Of a stretch of DNA of 52,668 nt, positions 32,645 through 42,345 are shown piece after piece (within the stretch, counting starts at the first letter, position 1; every line of letters starts with the position of its first letter). This DNA is from Streptacidiphilus melanogenes. GTDB taxonomy: Bacteria > Actinomycetota > Actinomycetes > Streptomycetales > Streptomycetaceae. The translations under genes were made by a program, and so were the position numbers. The stretch covers positions 26,412-79,079 of the forward strand of contig NZ_BBPP01000007.1 of NCBI RefSeq assembly GCF_000787835.1, in the 5' to 3' direction. The notes below the pieces were generated by a model, which searched no databases, had not been told where the DNA came from, and saw only the letters and a program-made list of their open reading frames with translations.

Positions 32645-33732
32645 CCCCCACCGACCGCAGCGCACCCCTGCGCGCCCGCACTACCGACGCGGCCGTCGCC
32701 GGCCAGAGCACGGCGCTGCCGATGGCGGCCACGGCCCGGCCGGCGGACCTGGTGATCACCGGCGAACTGATCCCCGCACCGGGTGACGGGCAGGGGAGCG
32801 GACCGCTCAGCGAGGTGGAACTCCACGACCTGGGCACGTGCGAGCGGGCCGTGGAGAACCTGGCCACCGCGACCTGGCTGGCGGGTAAGGCCCTGCAGAC
32901 CATCCGCGATGGCAAGCTCTACCGGCAGACCCACCGCACGTTTGAGGAGTACGTCACCGAGCGCTGGGAGATCGGCGAGCGCACTGCGTACCAGATGATC
33001 GAGGAATGGCCCCTGGCCGAACGCCTCAACCAGGCCTACGGCAAGCCCGTCACTGCCTCCCACATCCGCGCCCTGCTCCCCGTCACCACCCGCTTCGGCC
33101 TGGACGACGCCGTCGAGCTCTACCAGCAACTCCGAGCCCGCGCCCAAGCGGACGGCGTGCGGCTGACAGCACAGATCACCGGCCAGATCGCCAAGGCGGT
33201 CCTCAAGCGCGCCGGCCAGCAAGCCGGAGGGATCGAATTCACACATGCAGCCCGGCAGCTGATCACCGCTCAGCCATCGCTGGCCGAAGCGGGAGCGGCG
33301 CGATCGCGGTCAGCCGTGCCGCGTGATCGGCCGGTCGTGGCACCCGCCGAACCGGACCTGCGAAATTTCGCAGGAAATCACGGGGAGGTAACGGCACTGG
33401 CGAAGGGAGGGCAGCCGGGGCCCTTGACCGTGGACGGGATCGCGACCGTTCCAGTCAGGGCGGAGACGGGGAGCCCGGTGGCGATGGATGTCGGCATGTG
33501 GACCGCAGAGCTCGGTGAAGCGCAAGGAGGGGTGCTGAGCTCGGGGATGGCCAGGACTGCGGTCGGGCTCTACCGGGACATCGTCAGCCACATCCAGGCC
33601 ATCGAGCGGCTTGCAAGCTCGCCGTGTCTCGTGCCGAACGGACCGGACGAGGAGGCCGAGTTCGACCACCTCCACGTGCAGATCACCAACCGGCTCACCC
33701 AGATCCTGGACTCGCTCACCGCCGAGGGCTGA
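32641..33732 (+). CDS. ParB/KfrA-like partner of the ParA-like ATPase
   Basis: A 363-residue protein starting at a GTG that overlaps the ParA stop (GTGA). Residues about 60-145 (CERAVENLATATWLAGKALQTIRDGKLYRQTHRTFEEYVTERWEIGERTAYQMIEEWPLAERL) form a helical DNA-binding-type domain of the DUF3102 kind found in plasmid proteins; RFGLDDAVELYQQLRARAQ follows. The middle (240-300) is low-complexity, and the C-terminus is a short helix bundle. A centromere-binding role is inferred from operon position. A strong hairpin follows. Confidence 0.6.
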   Translation: MTPTDRSAPLRARTTDAAVAGQSTALPMAATARPADLVITGELIPAPGDGQGSGPLSEVELHDLGTCERAVENLATATWLAGKALQTIRDGKLYRQTHRTFEEYVTERWEIGERTAYQMIEEWPLAERLNQAYGKPVTASHIRALLPVTTRFGLDDAVELYQQLRARAQADGVRLTAQITGQIAKAVLKRAGQQAGGIEFTHAARQLITAQPSLAEAGAARSRSAVPRDRPVVAPAEPDLRNFAGNHGEVTALAKGGQPGPLTVDGIATVPVRAETGSPVAMDVGMWTAELGEAQGGVLSSGMARTAVGLYRDIVSHIQAIERLASSPCLVPNGPDEEAEFDHLHVQITNRLTQILDSLTAEG

Positions 33733-33741
33733 GCTCACGTT

Positions 33742-33771
33742 GCCGTGGTCCGCCAATCTGCGGACCACGGC
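33742..33771. terminator. Hairpin after the parA-parB-like pair
   Basis: A perfect 12-bp inverted repeat (GCCGTGGTCCGC, loop CAATCT, complement) lies 9 bp after the stop codon. It extends to 15 bp with one mismatch. Confidence 0.8.
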
Positions 33772-33811
33772 GACCTTCGTTCACCAGCCTGCATCTACTC
33801 GGAGCAAGGTC

Positions 33812-34474
33812 ATGTCGAACAAGCCCGCACTGCCAACGTCGCCCCCGGTCGGCACGAGGGCTGAGCAGTTGTCTCTGCTCTGCCCCAGGGACCCCGGCCC
33901 CGGGGCAGTTGGCGCTGTCCAACTCTCGTTGCTGGGGCAGCCAGCCGCTGTCCGGCTGCCTGCGGAGCTCTGGCGGTCCTGGCTCGACAGTCCCATCGTG
34001 GTCGCACGCTTTGAGGCCAAGCGCTACGTCCGTCGGGACAGCCGCTGCTGGCCGTGGCTCGGCGCGGTCAGCGACACCGGACACGGAAGCTTCAGAGCGG
34101 CGAGTCTCCCGGGAGTGTCCCGGCGTGGAACCGTCCCGGCGCACCTCTTCGCCTACCAACTGATCCATGGCGTCATACCGCGACTGGGCTGGTCGGAATC
34201 GGAGGACCCGGTCGTGTGCCACCGCTGCGACTCCCACGGCTGCGTCAACCCGCACCACCTACGCCTCGGCACCGCCGCCGAGAACCGAGCCGAGTGGGCA
34301 CGCCGCCACCGCGACCCGTCCGGGCCACTGGCGGACGTGCGCGGCCCAGTTGGCCGAACTCGCGCCATCGCCCAAGTGGTGAGGACCGGTCTCTCGCTCG
34401 GGGAGAGCCCGGCGCTCATCGACGCGCGAATCCTGACCGTCGAACGTGAAGGTCTCCCACTCACGTTGTGGTGA
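33812..34474 (+). CDS. HNH endonuclease-domain protein
   Basis: A 220-residue protein. Residues about 85-165 (CWPWLGAVSDTGHGSFRA ... AHLFAYQLIHGVIP ... VCHRCDSHGCVNPHHLRLGTAAENRAEW) form a phage-type HNH/HNH_3 domain with the catalytic HGCVNPHHL core and zinc-type cysteines. The C-terminal TRAIAQVVRTGLSLGESPALIDARILTVEREG resembles the HTH that often follows such nucleases. Related genes ride on phages and ICEs as homing or packaging nucleases. It is the last plus-strand gene of the module and is convergent with the candidate defence operon. Confidence 0.78.
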   Translation: MSNKPALPTSPPVGTRAEQLSLLCPRDPGPGAVGAVQLSLLGQPAAVRLPAELWRSWLDSPIVVARFEAKRYVRRDSRCWPWLGAVSDTGHGSFRAASLPGVSRRGTVPAHLFAYQLIHGVIPRLGWSESEDPVVCHRCDSHGCVNPHHLRLGTAAENRAEWARRHRDPSGPLADVRGPVGRTRAIAQVVRTGLSLGESPALIDARILTVEREGLPLTLW

Positions 34475-34487
34475 CCATGCGTCCATT

Positions 34488-34507
34488 CGGTTCCTTACGT
34501 GGAACCG
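34488..34507. terminator. Weak bidirectional hairpin between convergent genes
   Basis: CGGTTCC and GGAACCG flank a 6-base loop that contains the TAA stop of the minus-strand 565-residue gene, 14 bp from the HNH stop. Confidence 0.45.
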
Positions 34508-36192
34508 GGCGAGCTGTTTCCTTCGGGCTGTCCCTGGCTCTCGGCAAGTTCCGCCAGCCCGTTTAGGGCAGCCGCGGTGAGGTCGAGAATCTGGATGAAC
34601 TGCTGGTCCGGCCGGAGGTTTTCGAGGCCGGCACGGACCAGGGTGGCGTTCCAGTTCTTGCCACGCGCGTGAGCCGATCCGGTTGACCGCAGTCCTTGGA
34701 GGAGCCGCAGCGGTCCGATGAGGTTCTCGTTGTCCGAGCTGCTGGCGGTCACCCAGGCGTCCAGGCAGTTGATGCTCGCAGCCTTGGGATCCGACACGCC
34801 GGGTAGTTGCCGCAGGGCCTTGACATCGAGGTAGTCGACCACGCCCTTCGTAAGGCGCAGGATGAGGTTGTCGGCCTCACCTTGTTCGCTGGTGGTGGGC
34901 ACGTGCAGGCCCTCGAAGGCGATCTGGTCCTCGGGGTTCCAGGAGTTATAGACGGGTTTGCCCAGCAGGCTGGTCATGGATGTACTGAAGCGCTCTCGGG
35001 CGGCGAAGAGTTCACGCAGCGGGTCGGGTGGGCCGTCGAACCACTCGCCGAGAATGTCGCGGCGGTACCGGACATCGTCGCGTCCTCCGCCGGGCGGGGC
35101 GTTGAAGCTGACCCAGTGGTCACGCTCTTCCGTCGGCAGGTCACGGCCGAGGTCTCCGAGATACACCTCGACCATCCCTTCAGGGTTGGTGCCGATCGCG
35201 ATGCTCCAGAACCCGAGGCAGGAGAGCCGATCGTCGCTGATGCGGTACCGGGACGGCTGGGAGGTGTAGCGGTTCAGGACGGTGCGTCGGAAGTACACCC
35301 GAGTCAGGTAGTGCGGGGTTCCGCGATCAGTGAAATAGTCGCTCAGCTGGTCGGGGTCGCAGGTCGACGTGATCGGCTGACCGGAGCCCGGGTCGACTCC
35401 GATCGTGAACTCAGGGAACCGTTGCACTGACGGATGCGGGCGCGTGAGGGTCTCGGGCGCCGCGTCCAGGGGGAGGACGACTTGCTTGCCGAGAAGTCTG
35501 ACGAAGCCGGGCCGGTCGGCTGAGTGGATGTCTCCGCTGTGGAAGGAGAAGTGTCGCAAGTCGGTGTGCTCGGTGGCCTCGATCTTAGGGGAGGGGACCC
35601 GGTCGAGCCGGGTGATGCGGTTCAGCTGCACCACGAGCAGCCGCTGCCGGGCGGCAAGGTAGCGGCGCAGGGGAAGAGACGCGATGTCGATCCGCAGCTC
35701 TCCGGCAGTCCGGCGTACTCGTACGAGCTCGTGATCCCGGCCAGCATCGTCGAGGTAGTACCAGGACCCGTCGCTGCGGGGGATCGCGTCGAAGTACCAC
35801 AGGAACGACGGTCGGAATTCCGTCGTGGGCTCCGCCCGGCCGTGGTGATGGCGACGCTGAACGAAGAACTCCGCCCGGCTGTCGGAGTCTTCCAGTCCTT
35901 CTTCGAAGATTGCCCGCTGCTCGGGATAGGTGATGCTGATTCCGGCACTGCCGCCTGCACCGAATACGCCGGAGTAGTCCGCAAGTGCGCGCTGCCTCGC
36001 TGCGGGGGGAATCAGATAGCTGGCGATTCCCCAGTCGAGCCCCTCGGCGAGGGCTGCACCCAAGACGGTGACCCACTCGGTGGGCGTCGGGATGAGCGTC
36101 GCCAGCTCGGAGTCAGGCTTTGCTTCGTCAGGCAGTCCATCGCTGCTGCCACTGCTGTAGTTCAGCGCCACGTCCAAAGTGTAGGGAATCAA
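34495..36192 (-). CDS. 565-aa protein with HEPN-like C-terminus; last gene of candidate defence operon
   Basis: A 565-residue soluble protein that I do not recognise overall. The N-terminal two thirds are mixed alpha/beta with no known catalytic motif. In the last 110 residues an Asn-Leu-rich helix (SSSDNENLIGPLRLLQGL) runs into RSTGSAHARG (Arg502 to His508), an Rx5H pattern like that of HEPN RNases, followed by another amphipathic helix. HEPN domains are RNA-cleaving toxin parts in many abortive-infection systems; applying this here is inference. The TTG start at 36192 overlaps the TGA of a small upstream frame (TTGA), has no binding site of its own, and therefore probably depends on translational coupling. 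Confidence 0.65.
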   Translation of the reverse strand: MIPYTLDVALNYSSGSSDGLPDEAKPDSELATLIPTPTEWVTVLGAALAEGLDWGIASYLIPPAARQRALADYSGVFGAGGSAGISITYPEQRAIFEEGLEDSDSRAEFFVQRRHHHGRAEPTTEFRPSFLWYFDAIPRSDGSWYYLDDAGRDHELVRVRRTAGELRIDIASLPLRRYLAARQRLLVVQLNRITRLDRVPSPKIEATEHTDLRHFSFHSGDIHSADRPGFVRLLGKQVVLPLDAAPETLTRPHPSVQRFPEFTIGVDPGSGQPITSTCDPDQLSDYFTDRGTPHYLTRVYFRRTVLNRYTSQPSRYRISDDRLSCLGFWSIAIGTNPEGMVEVYLGDLGRDLPTEERDHWVSFNAPPGGGRDDVRYRRDILGEWFDGPPDPLRELFAARERFSTSMTSLLGKPVYNSWNPEDQIAFEGLHVPTTSEQGEADNLILRLTKGVVDYLDVKALRQLPGVSDPKAASINCLDAWVTASSSDNENLIGPLRLLQGLRSTGSAHARGKNWNATLVRAGLENLRPDQQFIQILDLTAAALNGLAELAESQGQPEGNSSPGST

Positions 36193-36405
36193 GGAAGTTC
36201 CACTTCGGCCTGTTCGGGATCACCACGTGCGCACCGCTGTGATTCCACGGGTGCGTCGACCCCGACCACCGACGTCTCGGCACCGGCGAGACCGAGCAGA
36301 TCGGTCCCGCTGCCGCCGCGACGGTACTGGCCCCTTGGAGGCGCGAGCCCGCGCGAACTTCGGTGCCGACGGGACCGGCACGGGGTTCGGCGCATCGTCA
36401 CTCAC
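36189..36405 (-). pseudogene. Small (~71-aa) ORF in the defence operon with an internal frameshift
   Basis: A GTG at 36405 opens MSDDAPNPVPVPSAPKFARA then RASKG. The coding signal then moves to the adjacent frame (QYRRGGSGTDLLGLAGAETS ... EQAEVELP), whose TGA overlaps the TTG of the 565-residue gene. Reading GGG instead of the GGGG run at 36331-36334 would give one continuous protein of about 71 residues. It could be a +1 slippage site, a recent mutation or a sequencing error. The stop/start overlap argues that this frame really ends here in translation. Confidence 0.45.
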
Positions 36406-36516
36406 CTACACCGATCGAGTCTGGCCGTGCGGCCCAACTCGAAGGCCTGGCAACCACGTTGCGCGGAGTCCCATCCGGGTGAGGGCATATGGCTGTCGGC
36501 CGAAGGGCGGCCTCGG

Positions 36517-38040
36517 TCACGCAGGCGACCCGCCGAACATCGTGCCGCGCCGCTTCGCGAGGACCTGCTCACACTGGCTGCAGAGATCTTGAAGGGCGTT
36601 GCGCCAGAGAATCGTCCTGGTTACGAGGGAGCTGGCCCGTTGCTGCCAGTCCCCGTCGTCTGCCCACCCTCCAGGTGCACGCCAGAGGACCGGTCGTACA
36701 TCCCTTTCCAACTGGCAGCCGTCCGGTGAGGCGATCTCCTCAAAGGTCACGCGCCGGGCCGTGACGTAGTCGGTGACGTCAACCTGGTTGTACATGGAAG
36801 TGAAGGCACGCACCGTTGACTGGCGTTTGACGATCTCGAACTCCAGTCGCACGAGCGGGAAGGGGTCACTGTCCGGCCAGAGGCGGTACTCGGCGGTCAG
36901 GGGCAGGACCATGGTGCTGCCCGTGTGCTCGTTGGGCTTCCAACCCAGAGCCTCCAAGGGCTCAAGTTGATCGGCGATTCTGCGAAGGGCGAGTTCCTGG
37001 TCAGCCTTCTGCGACATCTTCGCGGCGACGCGCTTCTGCGCGCGTTGTGCCGAGCCAGCGGGGACGGGCGCCGAATGCGTCGGGCCCGGTTCGTGAGGCG
37101 TCGATGCGAGGAGTGCCCGTCGAAGGGTTGGATTCCCGACGAGATCCCAGATGCCGATCTTGAGGTCGTAGCGTGCCTGGAGAAGGGAGCGGGCGGCTTC
37201 CAGGTCGGACGGGTCGCTCCATTGGCCGTCCCGGATGAGACCGGTGACGCCGAACCGTGCCTCGATCGGTACTGGACACGTGTAGCGGATCGGGTCAGGA
37301 GGTGCGGCGGGATCCCAGGGCAGTGCAGGTGTGGGCATTTCCGTGGTGTCAGGGCGGCCGGCGCGCAGCCATGCCAGATAGCCGCGGAGCAGGGATTCCG
37401 TGTGGTGGGTGTGCGGCATCACGAGGACGGTGTCTGGGGAGTAGAGGCGTCGCTCCTCGAAGGCCGTGAACACGGCGGAGGAGAGGCGGTCGCTGCCGGT
37501 GACGGTCTCGCTCGTGTCGATGACGACCGAGGCACCGATGACCTTCCCCGCTGCGGAGAGGTAGAACTCGTTGCCCTTCAGGAAGCGCCATCGGCTGCCC
37601 GGGTCACCGGGCTTGAAGCCGATAGTGCCCATGACCTCGTTGTTCCAGTTCTGGAGCCTGTGGGCGAAGGTGTACCCGTCCGGTAGAGCCTCATCCATGG
37701 AGGTGCGGATCAGCTCCAGTTCGGATGAGCCGCCTTGCAGCACCGAACGAAGCCCCGTCCTGCGCAGCGTGTCATCGGGTTGGAGCTCAACCACAGTGCG
37801 GTTGCCGAGCAGAAGGGCGAAGGCGTTGTCCCCGGCGGAGTCGAGGAGGCGACCGACTAGCGAGGACGCCGTGAGCCACCACAGTTGGGAGGTCGCGAGA
37901 CTGGAGTGGGTCACGTGGGAGGCGGGATCCCCGGTCACGGGCTGGCGGGAGTCCAGAGAGGATCCGTCGTCGACGGTCATCGGGCCGCCGACCAAGATGA
38001 TCGTCGGGGTGATTACGGCCGACGCCTGGTGATCGTTCAT
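36517..38040 (-). CDS. 507-aa protein of unknown family, second gene of candidate defence operon
   Basis: A 507-residue soluble protein without transmembrane segments or a motif that I can assign. The N-terminal half has a beta-rich region (FALLLGNRTVVELQPDD ... FYLSAAGKVIGASVVIDTS) followed by VLVMPHTHHTESLLRGYLAWL, whose clustered histidines could bind metal. The C-terminal part (DQELALRRIADQLEPLEALGWKP ... FTSMYNQVDVTDYV) is mixed. The ATG overlaps the helicase stop as TGATG and has GAGGAGGG upstream inside the helicase gene, so the two are made together. It may be the system's sensor or specificity subunit. Confidence 0.65.
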   Translation of the reverse strand: MNDHQASAVITPTIILVGGPMTVDDGSSLDSRQPVTGDPASHVTHSSLATSQLWWLTASSLVGRLLDSAGDNAFALLLGNRTVVELQPDDTLRRTGLRSVLQGGSSELELIRTSMDEALPDGYTFAHRLQNWNNEVMGTIGFKPGDPGSRWRFLKGNEFYLSAAGKVIGASVVIDTSETVTGSDRLSSAVFTAFEERRLYSPDTVLVMPHTHHTESLLRGYLAWLRAGRPDTTEMPTPALPWDPAAPPDPIRYTCPVPIEARFGVTGLIRDGQWSDPSDLEAARSLLQARYDLKIGIWDLVGNPTLRRALLASTPHEPGPTHSAPVPAGSAQRAQKRVAAKMSQKADQELALRRIADQLEPLEALGWKPNEHTGSTMVLPLTAEYRLWPDSDPFPLVRLEFEIVKRQSTVRAFTSMYNQVDVTDYVTARRVTFEEIASPDGCQLERDVRPVLWRAPGGWADDGDWQQRASSLVTRTILWRNALQDLCSQCEQVLAKRRGTMFGGSPA

Positions 38041-39806
38041 CAGCCCTCCTCGCGAAGCGAGAGGAGAGCTTCGAGCAACTCCGGTGCGTCGCCCGCCGCC
38101 AGTGCCAGGGATTCAGGGTCAGTGCCCGTCAAGCCCTCGCGTTCGATGAAGAGGCGGGCACAGGCGATCAGGACGGCGTGCGCTTCACGGCCCTGGGTGT
38201 CGAACGCGCCGCCCTGCTTGCCGACGGTACCGAGTGTTTCGAAGGAGCCCCTCGCTTCCCCGCTCCCGTCCTCGCCGCCGATCCGCAGGGCGCGTTCGCC
38301 GTCGGTGATGATGACCATCGGAGGTGGAAGCAGGTCTGCGTTCTCGGTGATGCGCCGGGCCATGTCGAGCAGGCTGGGGTCCGCCGGGATGTAGACGCGT
38401 CCGTGGTCGTCGACGTTGGCGGGGTCGGTGCGGACCACGCGGCCGACGATCTGGCGGAACGAGAGCAGGGTCAGGCGGTTGGTCAGGTAGATGACGGCGC
38501 GCAGCCGGGGGATGTCCACGCCTTCGGAGACCATGTTCACCGCCACGATCCACGGATCGTGCGCGGCGCGAAAGAGCCGGATCGCGTTCGCCGGGTCGGG
38601 GTCGTTCTCGTCGAAGAGCCTGGAGCAGGCGACGACCGGCCGGAACCCCAAGACGCGGGAGGCCATGTGGTCGGCGACGCGGGCAGCGTGGTCGCAGTCG
38701 ATGCAAACGACCAGTCCGGCCGCGTCCGTGTCACCGCGGGCGCGCAGGCCGAGAAGGTACTGGTTCGCATCCTGCAGCATCTGTTCAGCGATGGATCCCT
38801 CGCCGATCCACTCGATCGCTGCGCGCAGCCGCCCCCGCTCTCGGGTCTGGGGGACCTCGGTGTCGTCGAACGTGACCGAGTGGACCTCGTTGTCGGCGGT
38901 CCGGAATGTCGTCTCGCCGCGGGCTTCAACGAACTGGACCGGTCGGCAGGCGCTGTCGGTGATGGCCCGGTCGTAGGAGTAGCGGTAGTGCGGGCGGGCG
39001 TTCCCGTGCTCGGAGGGGACGAAGGCGATGGGGTCACGGCCGGTCCGAAAGGGCGTTCCCGAGAGCGACAGGATTCCCCACGCGCCGGCAGCGAAGGCCT
39101 CCTGCGCGGATATGCCCCAGGCTGCGTTGGCTCCGGCGTGGTGGACCTCGTCGAAGATGACGAGCGTGCGGTGGCCGGGATCGGTCGCATGGGCCAGGAA
39201 CATCTCCGTCACTGCGAACAGCGACTGGTAGGTGATGATTGCGCCCAGCCAGTCGTCTCCAATGGGATCCACGGGCCGCCACTCGCGCTGGGTTCGCAGA
39301 GGCAGGGTCGGCGAACTCGGCGTCGCCGACGACGCGGACCGCGACCAGCCGTCCGCAATCGCCAGCGACGGGACGACCACCAAGACGCGTGACACCTCGC
39401 CGCGGGCCACCAACTGGTAGGCCACCTCCAGGCCGAACCGCGTCTTACCCGCACCGGGACACGCTTCGACCAGGACCGGCTCGTGCCCCAGGTGGGACAT
39501 CACGATCGGCATGGCCTCCGCCTGCCAAGGCCGCAACCCCGCGATCGTCGGATGGATCCGGTCAATGGCGAAGCGTGCGCTGGTGACCTGCTGCGGCGTG
39601 CTGCCCTTCCGTAGATTGCATGACCCACAGATCGCCTGAAGGTTCTCAACGCTCGTGCGCCCGCCCCGGCTCCACGGAATGATGTGGTCGCCCTGCATCA
39701 GGTCGAACGGAATCGCGCGCCGACAGATATTGCAGACGTATCCCTGCAACTGCCATGTACGCCAAGTCTCTTGACGTGTGAACGTCCTGCGCAGGTCGAG
39801 AGTCAC
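38040..39806 (-). CDS. HNH nuclease - SF2 helicase fusion, first gene of candidate defence operon
   Basis: A 588-residue protein. Residues 15-68 are a zinc-stabilised HNH domain (CNIC at 25-28, Asp40-His41 in QGDHIIPWSRGG, Asn55, CGSC at 60-63 and Asn64). Residues 90-470 are a superfamily 2 DEAD/DEAH ATPase: Walker A ACPGAGKT (115-122), DEVH (219-222), SGT (249-251), a second RecA lobe with SEGVDIP, and motif VI QIVGRVVR (453-460). The C-terminal 120 residues are unassigned. The HNH-first order is reminiscent of restriction-like or defence helicases. The GTG start at 39806 has no strong binding site. This gene heads a coupled minus-strand operon. Confidence 0.85.
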   Translation of the reverse strand: MTLDLRRTFTRQETWRTWQLQGYVCNICRRAIPFDLMQGDHIIPWSRGGRTSVENLQAICGSCNLRKGSTPQQVTSARFAIDRIHPTIAGLRPWQAEAMPIVMSHLGHEPVLVEACPGAGKTRFGLEVAYQLVARGEVSRVLVVVPSLAIADGWSRSASSATPSSPTLPLRTQREWRPVDPIGDDWLGAIITYQSLFAVTEMFLAHATDPGHRTLVIFDEVHHAGANAAWGISAQEAFAAGAWGILSLSGTPFRTGRDPIAFVPSEHGNARPHYRYSYDRAITDSACRPVQFVEARGETTFRTADNEVHSVTFDDTEVPQTRERGRLRAAIEWIGEGSIAEQMLQDANQYLLGLRARGDTDAAGLVVCIDCDHAARVADHMASRVLGFRPVVACSRLFDENDPDPANAIRLFRAAHDPWIVAVNMVSEGVDIPRLRAVIYLTNRLTLLSFRQIVGRVVRTDPANVDDHGRVYIPADPSLLDMARRITENADLLPPPMVIITDGERALRIGGEDGSGEARGSFETLGTVGKQGGAFDTQGREAHAVLIACARLFIEREGLTGTDPESLALAAGDAPELLEALLSLREEG

Positions 39807-40253
39807 GAACGAAGGGTAACGGGAATTTCAGCGGCGCTCGCACAGCTCCGGCCCAGACTTGTCTCGGCTCCCCGTGAACAGCCAACAGATGAACTCGGGC
39901 GCACAACGGGACCAGCCGCCCGGCTCCTCACGCCGTGGATGACCCGAAGCATCCCAGCACACACTGCTGACCAAGATCAGGGCTTCGGGGATGCCGGCCC
40001 GGAACTCCCGGACTTTAGCCAGCGGGCCTCGGAGTGGTGGCCGAGGAGTGCCTGCGCGACCGCGAGGCAGACGAGTCCGGACTCGCTGAGCAGGGGCGGG
40101 CAGCCCATCCATCGCGTCCCCCGATCTCGTCGTGGATCTTCACGTAGAGTGCGATCAAGAGGGTGTTCAGGTCGGTCGTCACAAACTGATCTTGGACACC
40201 CTCGACCCTTTCCCAGGGCGTAACTTCGGATCTACTCGTCTAGGCTCCTCACC
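39807..40253. other. Region upstream of the helicase operon, with IS debris
   Basis: This 447-bp region between the divergent helicase operon and GIY-YIG gene contains a decayed IS982-type transposase start (40010-40182, minus). The rest has no supported gene. Promoters for both neighbours must lie here, but no convincing -35/-10 pair was seen. Confidence 0.55.
40010..40182 (-). mobile_element. Truncated, frameshifted IS982-family transposase remnant
   Basis: From a GTG at 40182 the translation reads TTDLNTLLIALYVKIHDEIG. After a frameshift the neighbouring frame continues RWMGCPPLLSESGLVCLAVA then QALLGHHSEARWL. Together this matches the N-terminus of Streptomyces IS982-like transposases as I remember it (MTTDLDTLLTALYVKIDD ... 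LVCLAVAQ ... SEARWL). The DDE catalytic part is missing. It marks past transposition at the right edge of the helicase operon. Confidence 0.7.
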
Positions 40254-40826
40254 ATGGACAAGGCCGTGGTGTGTGCCGCTCTCGCTGCCTTGGCCGACGG
40301 CCCACGTCACACAGCGAAGGAAGCCCTTGAGGTGGTGCCGAACGAGGCAGGCCTCTATGCGGTCTATGGTGACCTGCTGGCGGTCGGGGAACTCGCAGCA
40401 GGAACGGTTGGCCATCCCCTCTACGTGGGTAAGGCAGAGCGCAGCTTGGTAGGACGCGACCTGCACACGCACTTTGCAACGGGCAAGACGGGCTCCTCTA
40501 CCCTTCGTCGGACGCTCGCGGCGCTCCTGCGGGAGCCGCTCGAACTACGAGCAGTACCCCGCAACCTTGCTCTGCCTGACGGCAGCGCCAACTATTCCCT
40601 GGAGAACAGCGGCGACGAGCGGCTGACGGATTGGATGCACGCGAGGTTGCGGCTCGCGGTGTGGGTAAGGCCTGGGGGTATGGCCCTCGATGAGGTTGAG
40701 ACTGCCGTGCTCAATGCGCTACGGCCACCCCTCAACTTGGCGAAGATGGGTGGCCTGGGTGACCGCCGAGTCAAGGCGGCTCGCGCAACGATGGCAGCGG
40801 AAGCACGGGCCTGGCGAGAGGCGTGA
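40254..40826 (+). CDS. GIY-YIG nuclease-family protein
   Basis: A 190-residue protein. The GIY-YIG core appears as AGLYAVYGD (GLY at 33-35) and HPLYVGKAERSLVGRDLHTHF (YVG at 57-59, Arg68), followed by GSSTLRRTLAALL. The Glu of the active site is likely in ALDEVETAVLNALRPPLNLAKM, whose PPLN is typical for this subgroup. The family includes homing nucleases and repair or restriction-type nucleases. Placement beside the helicase/HNH operon hints at a defence function, but it is divergent and may be independent. Confidence 0.78.
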   Translation: MDKAVVCAALAALADGPRHTAKEALEVVPNEAGLYAVYGDLLAVGELAAGTVGHPLYVGKAERSLVGRDLHTHFATGKTGSSTLRRTLAALLREPLELRAVPRNLALPDGSANYSLENSGDERLTDWMHARLRLAVWVRPGGMALDEVETAVLNALRPPLNLAKMGGLGDRRVKAARATMAAEARAWREA

Positions 40827-41033: not shown

Positions 41034-41567
41034 TCAGGGCTGCCCGATACCGCCCATCTCCGCCGCGAATGCCACGGGATTGCTGTCGAACCCCCGGATC
41101 ATCTCGTGCAGCTCCCACCCGCCGGAATCATCCCGGGTGAACTCCGCCACTGTCGCGGCGGTGGATCCAGCGACTGTCGTGAAATCGTCCGTCAGCAACT
41201 CCCTGGACTTCTCAGCGATCACCACGCCGGTATTGGGGATGTCACGGAAGACGAGAGGGCCGTCAGCTTGATGGATGGCCACTCCCACGACCACTCGCGC
41301 GTAGGAGGGGGCCAGGCGGTCGAGCTCCAGGACCATCACCTCGTCGAAGCCGAGCCCCTGGCCGGTCTTGCTGTGCCGGTTCATGTTGATGGTGCCGTCT
41401 GGCGACCGACTGTCGTAGTGAGCGACGTACACCGGCCGACCGTGGGAGGCAGTCACCGAGTAGGTCGCGGCGATGATGTCCAGATGGTGGGGAGGCTCAC
41501 CCCAGGGTGCAGGGTCCCAACGGAGCTTTACTTCGACCTTCGTGAGTTCCTTGTGGACACTGCTCAT
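41034..41567 (-). CDS. TerD-family protein
   Basis: A 177-residue TerD domain protein. It contains VEVKLRWDPAPWGEPPHHLDIIAATYS, GFDEVMVLELDRLAPSYARVVVGVAIHQ and TVAEFTRDDSGGWELHEMIRGFDSNP, which align with the calcium-binding TerD fold of tellurium and stress resistance proteins. Solitary TerD proteins are common in streptomycetes and linked to stress or differentiation; this one has no ter cluster around it. The ATG at 41567 is preferred to an upstream in-frame ATG because MSSVHKELTKVEVKL is the usual N-terminal shape. Confidence 0.85.
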   Translation of the reverse strand: MSSVHKELTKVEVKLRWDPAPWGEPPHHLDIIAATYSVTASHGRPVYVAHYDSRSPDGTINMNRHSKTGQGLGFDEVMVLELDRLAPSYARVVVGVAIHQADGPLVFRDIPNTGVVIAEKSRELLTDDFTTVAGSTAATVAEFTRDDSGGWELHEMIRGFDSNPVAFAAEMGGIGQP

Positions 41568-42345
41568 CGAACCCTGTCTCCCCGAATCAGGCGAGTGCGG
41601 GAATCTCCGCATGCTCAAGTATGGTCGCTTAACAGCCTGTTGATCCCTTCATAGCGTGCTTGATCACTGTGGTGCAAGCCATGGGGTAGGCGGCCCCAGC
41701 GGCGGTCATCGCAGGTCAGCTGCTCGGCTCGGGCGGTCTCGGCCAGGTTGGAGCCCTTCCGATCTCGACAGCGGTCATGTGGGATGTGTCGCGCGGCGAC
41801 GCCTTCCGCGAACGCCGACGACGGTTCGCCCGTACACGGCAACTCGTCCGCACTACTGAGGCGTCCCTGCGGCCGCGCCGGAGCCCGGCTGGGCTGGACA
41901 CAAGGGAGGTGCAGCATGCCCTTCCCCTGCACTGGGCAACGTCAGGTGCCGCCGGCCAGGTTGATGGCGTGCCGGGAGTGCGACAGCACCAGCGTGACGA
42001 GGGTCGTCAGCACGAACCCGGCGACCAGGCCGGTGATCGGGCGCCCGGTCGGATTCAGGCGCCCCTCCCAGGTGGTGTCCGCGCCGGAACGGGCGCGACA
42101 ACGACGAGGTGTACGTGCTGCCGGGCGACAATAGCCAGATCGCCGGCCCGGAGCTCTCCTTGGCCCGTCCGCGTGCCGACGGGTCGCGTTGGTCCATGGG
42201 CAATCGTCACCTTCACAGAGCTCTGTTCGTGGCGTCAGGAGCTGGTTACAGGAACGGGCCGCGACTTCGTCGTCCGGGGTAACACGTCCTCCCTAGCTTG
42301 CGGTCACCGGTCGGCGTCGGGCTGCCGGGTGGAGGGAGGACCCCC
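41568..42345. other. Gene-poor region with remnants between TerD and NarK
   Basis: In these 778 bp I see no intact gene. A minus-strand fragment at about 41942-42088 encodes the end of a membrane protein. A frame at 41615-41932 (minus, ending RYEGINRLLSDHT) has irregular third-position bias and is not called. The last 60 bp before NarK carry its ribosome-binding site and presumably its promoter. Confidence 0.5.
41942..42088 (-). pseudogene. C-terminal fragment of a membrane protein
   Basis: The translation DTTWEGRLNPTGRPITGLVA then GFVLTTLVTLVLSHSRHAIN and LAGGT, with a TGA at 41942-41944, contains one convincing transmembrane helix and coding-type third positions, but it has no start or upstream domain. 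I read it as the stump of a deleted gene. Confidence 0.4.

Follow-up and report, generated by a model that had tools for sequence, protein, structure and literature searches.

Do three consecutive genes on one strand of an actinomycete contig form a single anti-phage system, or do they belong to separate units that happen to lie side by side? This question is raised by a 52,668-nucleotide stretch of Streptacidiphilus melanogenes DNA (contig NZ_BBPP01000007.1, positions 26,412 to 79,079; "the window" hereafter means this whole analysed stretch), which comes from an assembly of 8.77 Mb in 107 contigs. Three large minus-strand frames are found in it, of 588 amino acids (aa; positions 38040–39806), 507 aa (36517–38040) and 565 aa (34495–36192), and all three have the codon-position GC content of genes (.66–.68/.49–.51/.80–.85). 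A preliminary description made from the letters alone had located these frames correctly and had read them, together with a small frame lying between the last two, as a four-part phage-defence operon. Our results show instead that the first two genes, encoding an HNH endonuclease-helicase fusion and a 507-aa partner, form a conserved module of their own, and that the third is a solo gene.

In a scan of genome contigs, 13 pattern matches were obtained; eight of them code for homologues of the 507-aa protein with 42–65% identity. The carriers are Streptomyces geranii, Pseudonocardia acaciae, one Acidimicrobiaceae metagenome-assembled genome (MAG) and five Actinomycetes MAG contigs. A helicase with 69–84% identity lies directly upstream of the partner in all eight bacterial loci, although in L019, L020, L021 and L024 the contig starts inside the helicase gene, so that its end alone is present. 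The two genes overlap by four bases in each of the six relatives in which both frames were read (L017, L018, L020, L022, L023 and L024); in the window, the overlap seen earlier as TGATG was confirmed at position 38040. At the DNA level, the window resembles the S. geranii locus (L017) over positions 36572–39821 only. When viral contigs were scanned with the family alignment, two contigs encoding partner relatives were recovered among 36 pattern matches; a second family alignment returned the same two contigs only, and viral scans with single sequences of both proteins found no relative. These data demonstrate that the helicase and the 507-aa protein constitute a conserved, overlapping two-gene module of Actinomycetota and of a phage, present in 8/8 bacterial loci and in two near-identical phage contigs with the partner as query. 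A partial literature search found neither a description of this gene pair nor the term "HNH-helicase".

The same co-occurrence test, which had been proposed for the whole set, separates the third gene from the other two. None of 13 solo-gene loci (10–20 kb each) contains a relative of either the helicase or the 507-aa family, and none of 10 pair loci (3.8–17.5 kb) contains a relative of the solo gene (tblastn, E 1e-3); it is on account of these counts that we set the solo gene apart from the pair. In the nine other genomes that carry it, the helicase profile is matched only outside its HNH domain, on a different contig from the solo gene or no less than 170 kb distant from it. When positions 34498–39806 were used as a DNA query against plasmids, eight records were obtained, six of which touch the solo gene only and two a short piece of the helicase gene only. 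DNA similarity to other copies of the solo gene is confined to 34526–36185, and that to S. geranii ends at 36572.

The region between the two units, a 345-bp gap (36172–36516), contains the supposed small gene (70 aa, 36189–36401, minus strand). Its codon-position GC (.77/.63/.68, compared with.67/.49/.80 for the 565-aa frame) is that of non-coding DNA and no relative beyond chance was detected in 11 loci (best tblastn E 0.47); it was therefore rejected as a gene. The TTG at 36192, which had placed the start of the third gene in a TTGA overlap with this frame, is very probably a mis-called start, because GTG 36171 is the aligned start in each of five Streptomyces-type homologues for which the DNA upstream was read; in the L037 copy no start codon exists farther upstream of the aligned one. 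The solo gene is thus probably 558 aa long (34495–36171, minus strand). Six nucleotides upstream of its GTG is a −10-like box, TACACT (36178–36183, minus strand), and a TANNNT sequence is found 6–7 nt before the start in all six Streptomyces-type copies examined (window, L005, L035, L036, L037 and L038). A similar box, TACCCT (39813–39818, minus strand), precedes the GTG of the helicase gene by 6 nt and recurs at 6–7 nt in four of the six copies examined (window, L017, L018 and L022). Such a distance between box and start is expected of a leaderless transcript. From their match to the consensus, TACACT may be the solo gene's own leaderless promoter and TACCCT possibly that of the pair.

The first gene of the pair (38040–39806, minus strand) encodes the fusion of an HNH nuclease to a superfamily 2 (SF2) helicase that had been recognised from the letters, as shown by its Pfam matches to HNH (E 8.8e-13), ResIII (E 5.7e-15) and Helicase_C (E 1.1e-5). 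The catalytic HNH motif (CxxC, DH, CxxCNxxKG) is intact in all nine aligned helicases, those of the window and the phage included, and so are the helicase motifs GxGKT (Walker A), DExH, SGTP/TGTP (motif III) and QxVGR (motif VI). The protein thus has the motif sets of both an HNH endonuclease and an SF2 helicase.

The second gene (36517–38040, minus strand) encodes a protein of unrecognised family, whose window copy has no match in Pfam, PADLOC, NCBIfam or PHROGs; a profile of the family gave no credible match in the PDB (best E 0.39). It is also very sporadic: it is absent from 72,556 plasmid records, no copy besides itself was found in 14 genomes of the genus, and no true match besides itself among the 394 genomes of the family and the 394 of the class. 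Two apparent matches were discarded as chance frames, since their translations are those of an ABC transporter (family genome G179) and of a gyrB-like protein (class genome G438). The core of the partner was set at residues ~13–310 because these are the residues matched by the short phage partners described below; the remaining tail is lineage-specific. When six bacterial copies are aligned with the two from the phage contigs, 37 columns are invariant. In the core, E281 and D292-x-K294 are invariant (alignment A4), as is D276 except for an N in L019, and these residues are possible candidates for nuclease residues. The partner evolves faster than the helicase, with identities of 65/55/48/42% as against 84/74/71/72% in L017/L018/L022/L023.

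The tails of the partner differ in kind. In L023 the core is followed by a HIRAN domain (Pfam E 3.6e-11), and it is probably to this tail that the PADLOC candidate model PDC-M03B, which matches one of eight family members (E 2.5e-8), responds. In L022 the core bears an extension of ~170 aa akin to the C-terminal domain of portal/MuF proteins (PHROG portal phrog_2662, 2.6e-6; minor head phrog_115, 4.5e-4), with tblastn matches in phages at 2e-5 and 4e-5 and to a Mu F-like protein at 0.09. Tails that can be aligned with it are present in L020 and L024. L022 has no Pfam match, however, and PF04233 has none in either phage contig. Two other candidate relationships were tried. A DUF4268-like C-terminus was not supported (PF14088 in 1/60 class genomes; hhalign of alignment A1 against that member, probability 0.1%, E 0.5), and a kinship with the ~205-aa partner found beside the plasmid helicases was rejected (six sequences compared by phmmer, best E 0.059).

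Across 11.2 kb of compared sequence, the two phage contigs share 99.96% identity. The 157 kb contig (G748) carries genes for a portal protein (E 1.5e-132), a major head protein (9.5e-93), DnaB, a primase, a thymidylate synthase and an exonuclease, and is by its predicted gene content a large tailed phage. Behind its helicase, which is 47% identical to that of the window, come two short partners in tandem, with overlapping genes, of 263 and 428 aa (with the starts that we chose); they match residues 13–310 of the 507-aa protein. We also observed that these two partners have in common a 171-bp segment at the end of the core, 81% identical (L051, 5588–5755 and 6508–6675); a fairly recent duplication or conversion therefore appears to have taken place. 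At E 0.1, no relative of the phage partner was found in 50,697 annotated phage records, and its helicase has two relatives in annotated phages, the better one in Saccharomonospora phage PIS 136 (34% identity over 82%).

The surroundings of the pair loci include defence and mobility genes. The S. geranii pair is located between two such genes: an LmuA-type gene with Cap4-type nuclease and ABC-3C C-terminal domains (PADLOC LmuA 4.9e-58; Pfam CTD7 6.6e-34) at a distance of ~0.5 kb, and a caspase gene (1.5e-16) at 3 kb. The neighbours in L022 are AbiEi/AbiEii (AbiEii 2e-71), a large serine recombinase and a type IV coupling protein; the L023 pair is near a phage-type integrase and the L024 pair near a transposase. 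This context is suggestive of defence or mobility and goes no further than that. The presence of LmuA-type, caspase and AbiE genes near the pair, and of CBASS cyclases near the solo gene, makes defence plausible for both units. To this extent the preliminary description is partly supported, without the claim that they are one system.

Taken together, these results favour, at a probability of about 0.55, the reading of the pair as a two-component DNA-interference module composed of a motor-nuclease and a fast-evolving targeting partner. In such a module (39806 to 36517, minus strand), an SF2 translocase bearing an N-terminal HNH domain would be co-produced with the 507-aa partner from overlapping genes. 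The partner would most likely recognise the target, be it a DNA end, a structure or a modification, and this recognition would license the HNH domain to cut foreign DNA. Cells would deploy the module against invading phages or plasmids, and the large phage would probably use its own version against rival DNA. The pair is a compact two-gene defence candidate whose motor and nuclease are intact and whose partner has a core with no recognised relative, and it occurs in bacteria as well as in a phage. As natural variants, the tails of HIRAN and portal-like type make the targeting question testable by comparison, and splitting off the HEPN-like gene and the false small frame avoids testing a chimaeric "system".

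A number of observations weigh against this reading. The ten loci are few, since five of those in bacteria are MAG copies that resemble one another and the phage contigs are almost the same; the partner served as query in finding them, and this biases the set toward pairs. Since those five Actinomycetes MAG copies are alike, two of them coming from one bin, and L020 and L021 are identical in translation, the independent loci number fewer than eight. Neighbouring families were counted without a baseline, and three scanned neighbours of L018, one of L020 and one of L017 gave no match to a family of mobile elements or defence. Neither L023 nor the phage has the −10-like box in front of the helicase gene. 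The role of the partner is one that we infer, as its core has no relative of known function. Finally, the SF2 core shows a relationship to helicases of the phage replication type (PHROG 16, E 5.5e-24) and is matched at E <= 1e-30 in 393/394 family genomes; it is also matched in 299/394 class genomes at the same threshold. Among the matches listed in these genomes, most cover residues ~87–490 at ~36% identity, mostly without the HNH part, and none exceeds 40% identity to the helicase except the window's own gene. The near-universal protein looks like a housekeeping helicase; it may be an ancestor or a cousin of the HNH-helicase. Among the same listed matches, which are a sample, no close helicase lacking the partner was seen. 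The plasmid search gave 75 records matching the helicase, all below 60% identity.

The kinship of the SF2 core with replication-type and near-universal helicases makes a repair or replication role possible. The pair would then be a mobile-element module for DNA replication, recombination or repair, with a UvsW/RecG-like fork helicase bearing an HNH domain that its partner loads at forks or ends. That the core is closest to the PHROG 16 DNA helicase agrees with this, as do the presence of the pair on a phage, whose helicase has the relative in phage PIS 136, its proximity to a recombinase and a coupling protein in L022, and the existence on plasmids of helicase cousins at 31–37% identity with another partner. 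The HIRAN domain of one partner also fits, HIRAN being described as binding damaged DNA (PMC11706625). Against it stand the position of the S. geranii pair between an LmuA-type gene and, farther on, a caspase gene, and the very sporadic distribution of the partner across the family and class genomes, and we consider this explanation somewhat unlikely. Alternatively, the pair could be a counter-defence or superinfection-exclusion module of phages or mobile elements that bacteria have captured. The large tailed phage with its two partner copies would suit such an origin, and so would the MuF/portal-like tail on partners in Actinomycetes MAGs; MuF is reported to bear effector fusions in phages (PMC5512222). 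However, eight of the ten loci are bacterial, no phage structural gene was seen among the scanned neighbours (a scan that was not systematic) and the phage partner is without relatives in the annotated phage records, which leaves this origin improbable. The four-gene defence operon has in its favour that the three large genes are consecutive on one strand. It is contradicted by the lack of co-occurrence in all 13 solo-gene loci and all 10 pair loci, by the −10-like box of the solo gene, by the 345-bp gap and by the non-coding nature of the small frame, and is in our view very improbable indeed.

The DNA-interference reading of the pair leaves the solo gene to be considered separately. The RxxxxxH motif that had been noticed at the end of its product was confirmed as R502...H508 (565-aa numbering), and both residues are kept by every one of the 12 family members, the window included (alignment A3), with a spacing of x5 in ten and x4 in two. 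HEPN RNases are characterised in PMC3710099 by an Rx4-6H motif with a polar residue after the arginine. The 565-aa family resembles them in having this motif near the C-terminus, with a polar residue after the arginine, but differs in that it matches no Pfam, PADLOC or PDB profile (best PDB E 0.26, to an unrelated protein), the window protein having no credible family in NCBIfam or PHROGs either, and in that its N-terminal ~450 aa are of unrecognised type; this failure of Pfam and the PDB profile to find HEPN counts against the assignment. Because the motif is kept throughout the family, we propose an HEPN-type RNase, which is what this motif suggests. Expressed apparently from its own promoter (36171 to 34495, minus strand), it would act in growth arrest or abortive infection.

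Relatives of the solo gene were matched by tblastn in 14 plasmid records (Streptomyces, Rhodococcus and Pseudomonas), four of which cover at least 80% of the query, and in 10/297 family genomes, the window's own included, some by short pieces only. None was found in 50,697 annotated phage records. In the plasmid copies L005, L007, H9, H11 and H14, the matches span just 10–47% of the gene, and these look like fragments or split copies. CBASS cyclases were identified near it in L036 (6e-116) and L006 (2.7e-237), and on a P. syringae plasmid its neighbours are gamma-mobile-trio genes. Three scanned neighbours (that of L035, the second one of L036 and that of L037) have no PADLOC match; here, too, not every neighbour points to defence. 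A DUF4238 gene follows on the same strand in L007, where it is annotated; the gene in L035 is similar by reading and has no PADLOC match.

Both units lie in a stretch (~32.5–42.5 kb) whose GC content is 0.66–0.68, against 0.69–0.76 across the first 30 kb of the window. Because of this lower GC, we read the stretch as an acquired island, which it probably is. Two flanking genes are outside the module. One is the GIY-YIG catalytic-domain gene that had already been named as a neighbour (40254–40826, plus strand; Pfam PF20815, E 9.7e-15), and the other an HNH/zinc-loop endonuclease-like frame at the end of a plasmid-like module (33611–34474, plus strand), with HNH_3 (E 7.9e-4) and zf-His_Me_endon (E 3.4e-4) matches that are both below the Pfam cut-off. 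Neither has a match in L017–L024 at E 1e-3. Near the GIY-YIG gene, on the same island, is a TerD-domain gene (41034–41618, minus strand; Pfam E 3.5e-14). Between the GIY-YIG gene and the helicase, a broken minus-strand frame at ~39980–40110 encodes a single short transposase-like peptide, which had been labelled IS982 and may belong to that family.

How does the pair compare with known systems? As the preliminary description had anticipated, no named defence system was recognised: neither the 507-aa nor the 565-aa window protein has a PADLOC match, and for the helicase the matches listed (25 of 26 families) are all partial. Hachiman-like systems are likewise pairs of a helicase and a partner. 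Among the listed matches, however, no Hachiman model appears, and from Hachiman, Gabija, Druantia, DISARM and Zorya only GajB is represented (1.8e-4 over 36 residues). The restriction-type motors (Res subunits of types I and III) resemble the pair in combining a translocase, a nuclease and a partner. The helicase partially matches PADLOC profiles of type IIG (4.6e-10) and type II (2e-8) restriction-modification systems, as well as NCBIfam dnd_restrict_1 (2e-9, far below its cut-off), but restriction systems differ from the pair in that no methyltransferase was found among the window proteins scanned. The best PADLOC match, confined in its likeness to the SF2 core, is PbeA of the phosphorothioate-linked PbeABCD defence (E 4.7e-15). 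PbeA is described as a fusion of an HKD nuclease to a helicase that acts with a CxC ABC ATPase and a DndE cognate (PMC10853773), whereas the window protein has HNH in place of HKD, and no ABC or DndE family was found among the Pfam-scanned window proteins.

A close parallel is offered by sister modules. Streptomyces HNH-helicases at 31–37% identity are followed by a different gene, of ~205 aa, in the three plasmid loci that were opened (L009–L011), and such a second gene also follows helicase cousins in 4/4 whole-genome loci examined (L059–L061 and L088). The two genes overlap in all five of these loci in which both frames were read, and the copies of the ~205-aa gene that were compared are 30–80% identical. 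Like the window helicase, the cousins in L009, L059 and L061 have intact HNH and helicase motifs; in L010 and L011 the annotated protein begins after the HNH part, though tblastn covers that part. The sister modules differ in their low helicase identity and in a ~205-aa partner that is unrelated to the 507-aa protein. A broader proposal, which we put forward as quite unlikely, would unite the two groups. HNH-SF2 helicases would be the motor common to a family of modular, two-gene systems of DNA interference, and the second gene would supply an exchangeable sensor, either a 507-family core (residues 13–310) joined to HIRAN or to a portal-like MuF domain, or the unrelated 205-aa protein found in the sister clade. 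With the portal-like version, the nuclease would be directed to DNA crossing the phage portal, and the phage would carry the module with its sensor duplicated.

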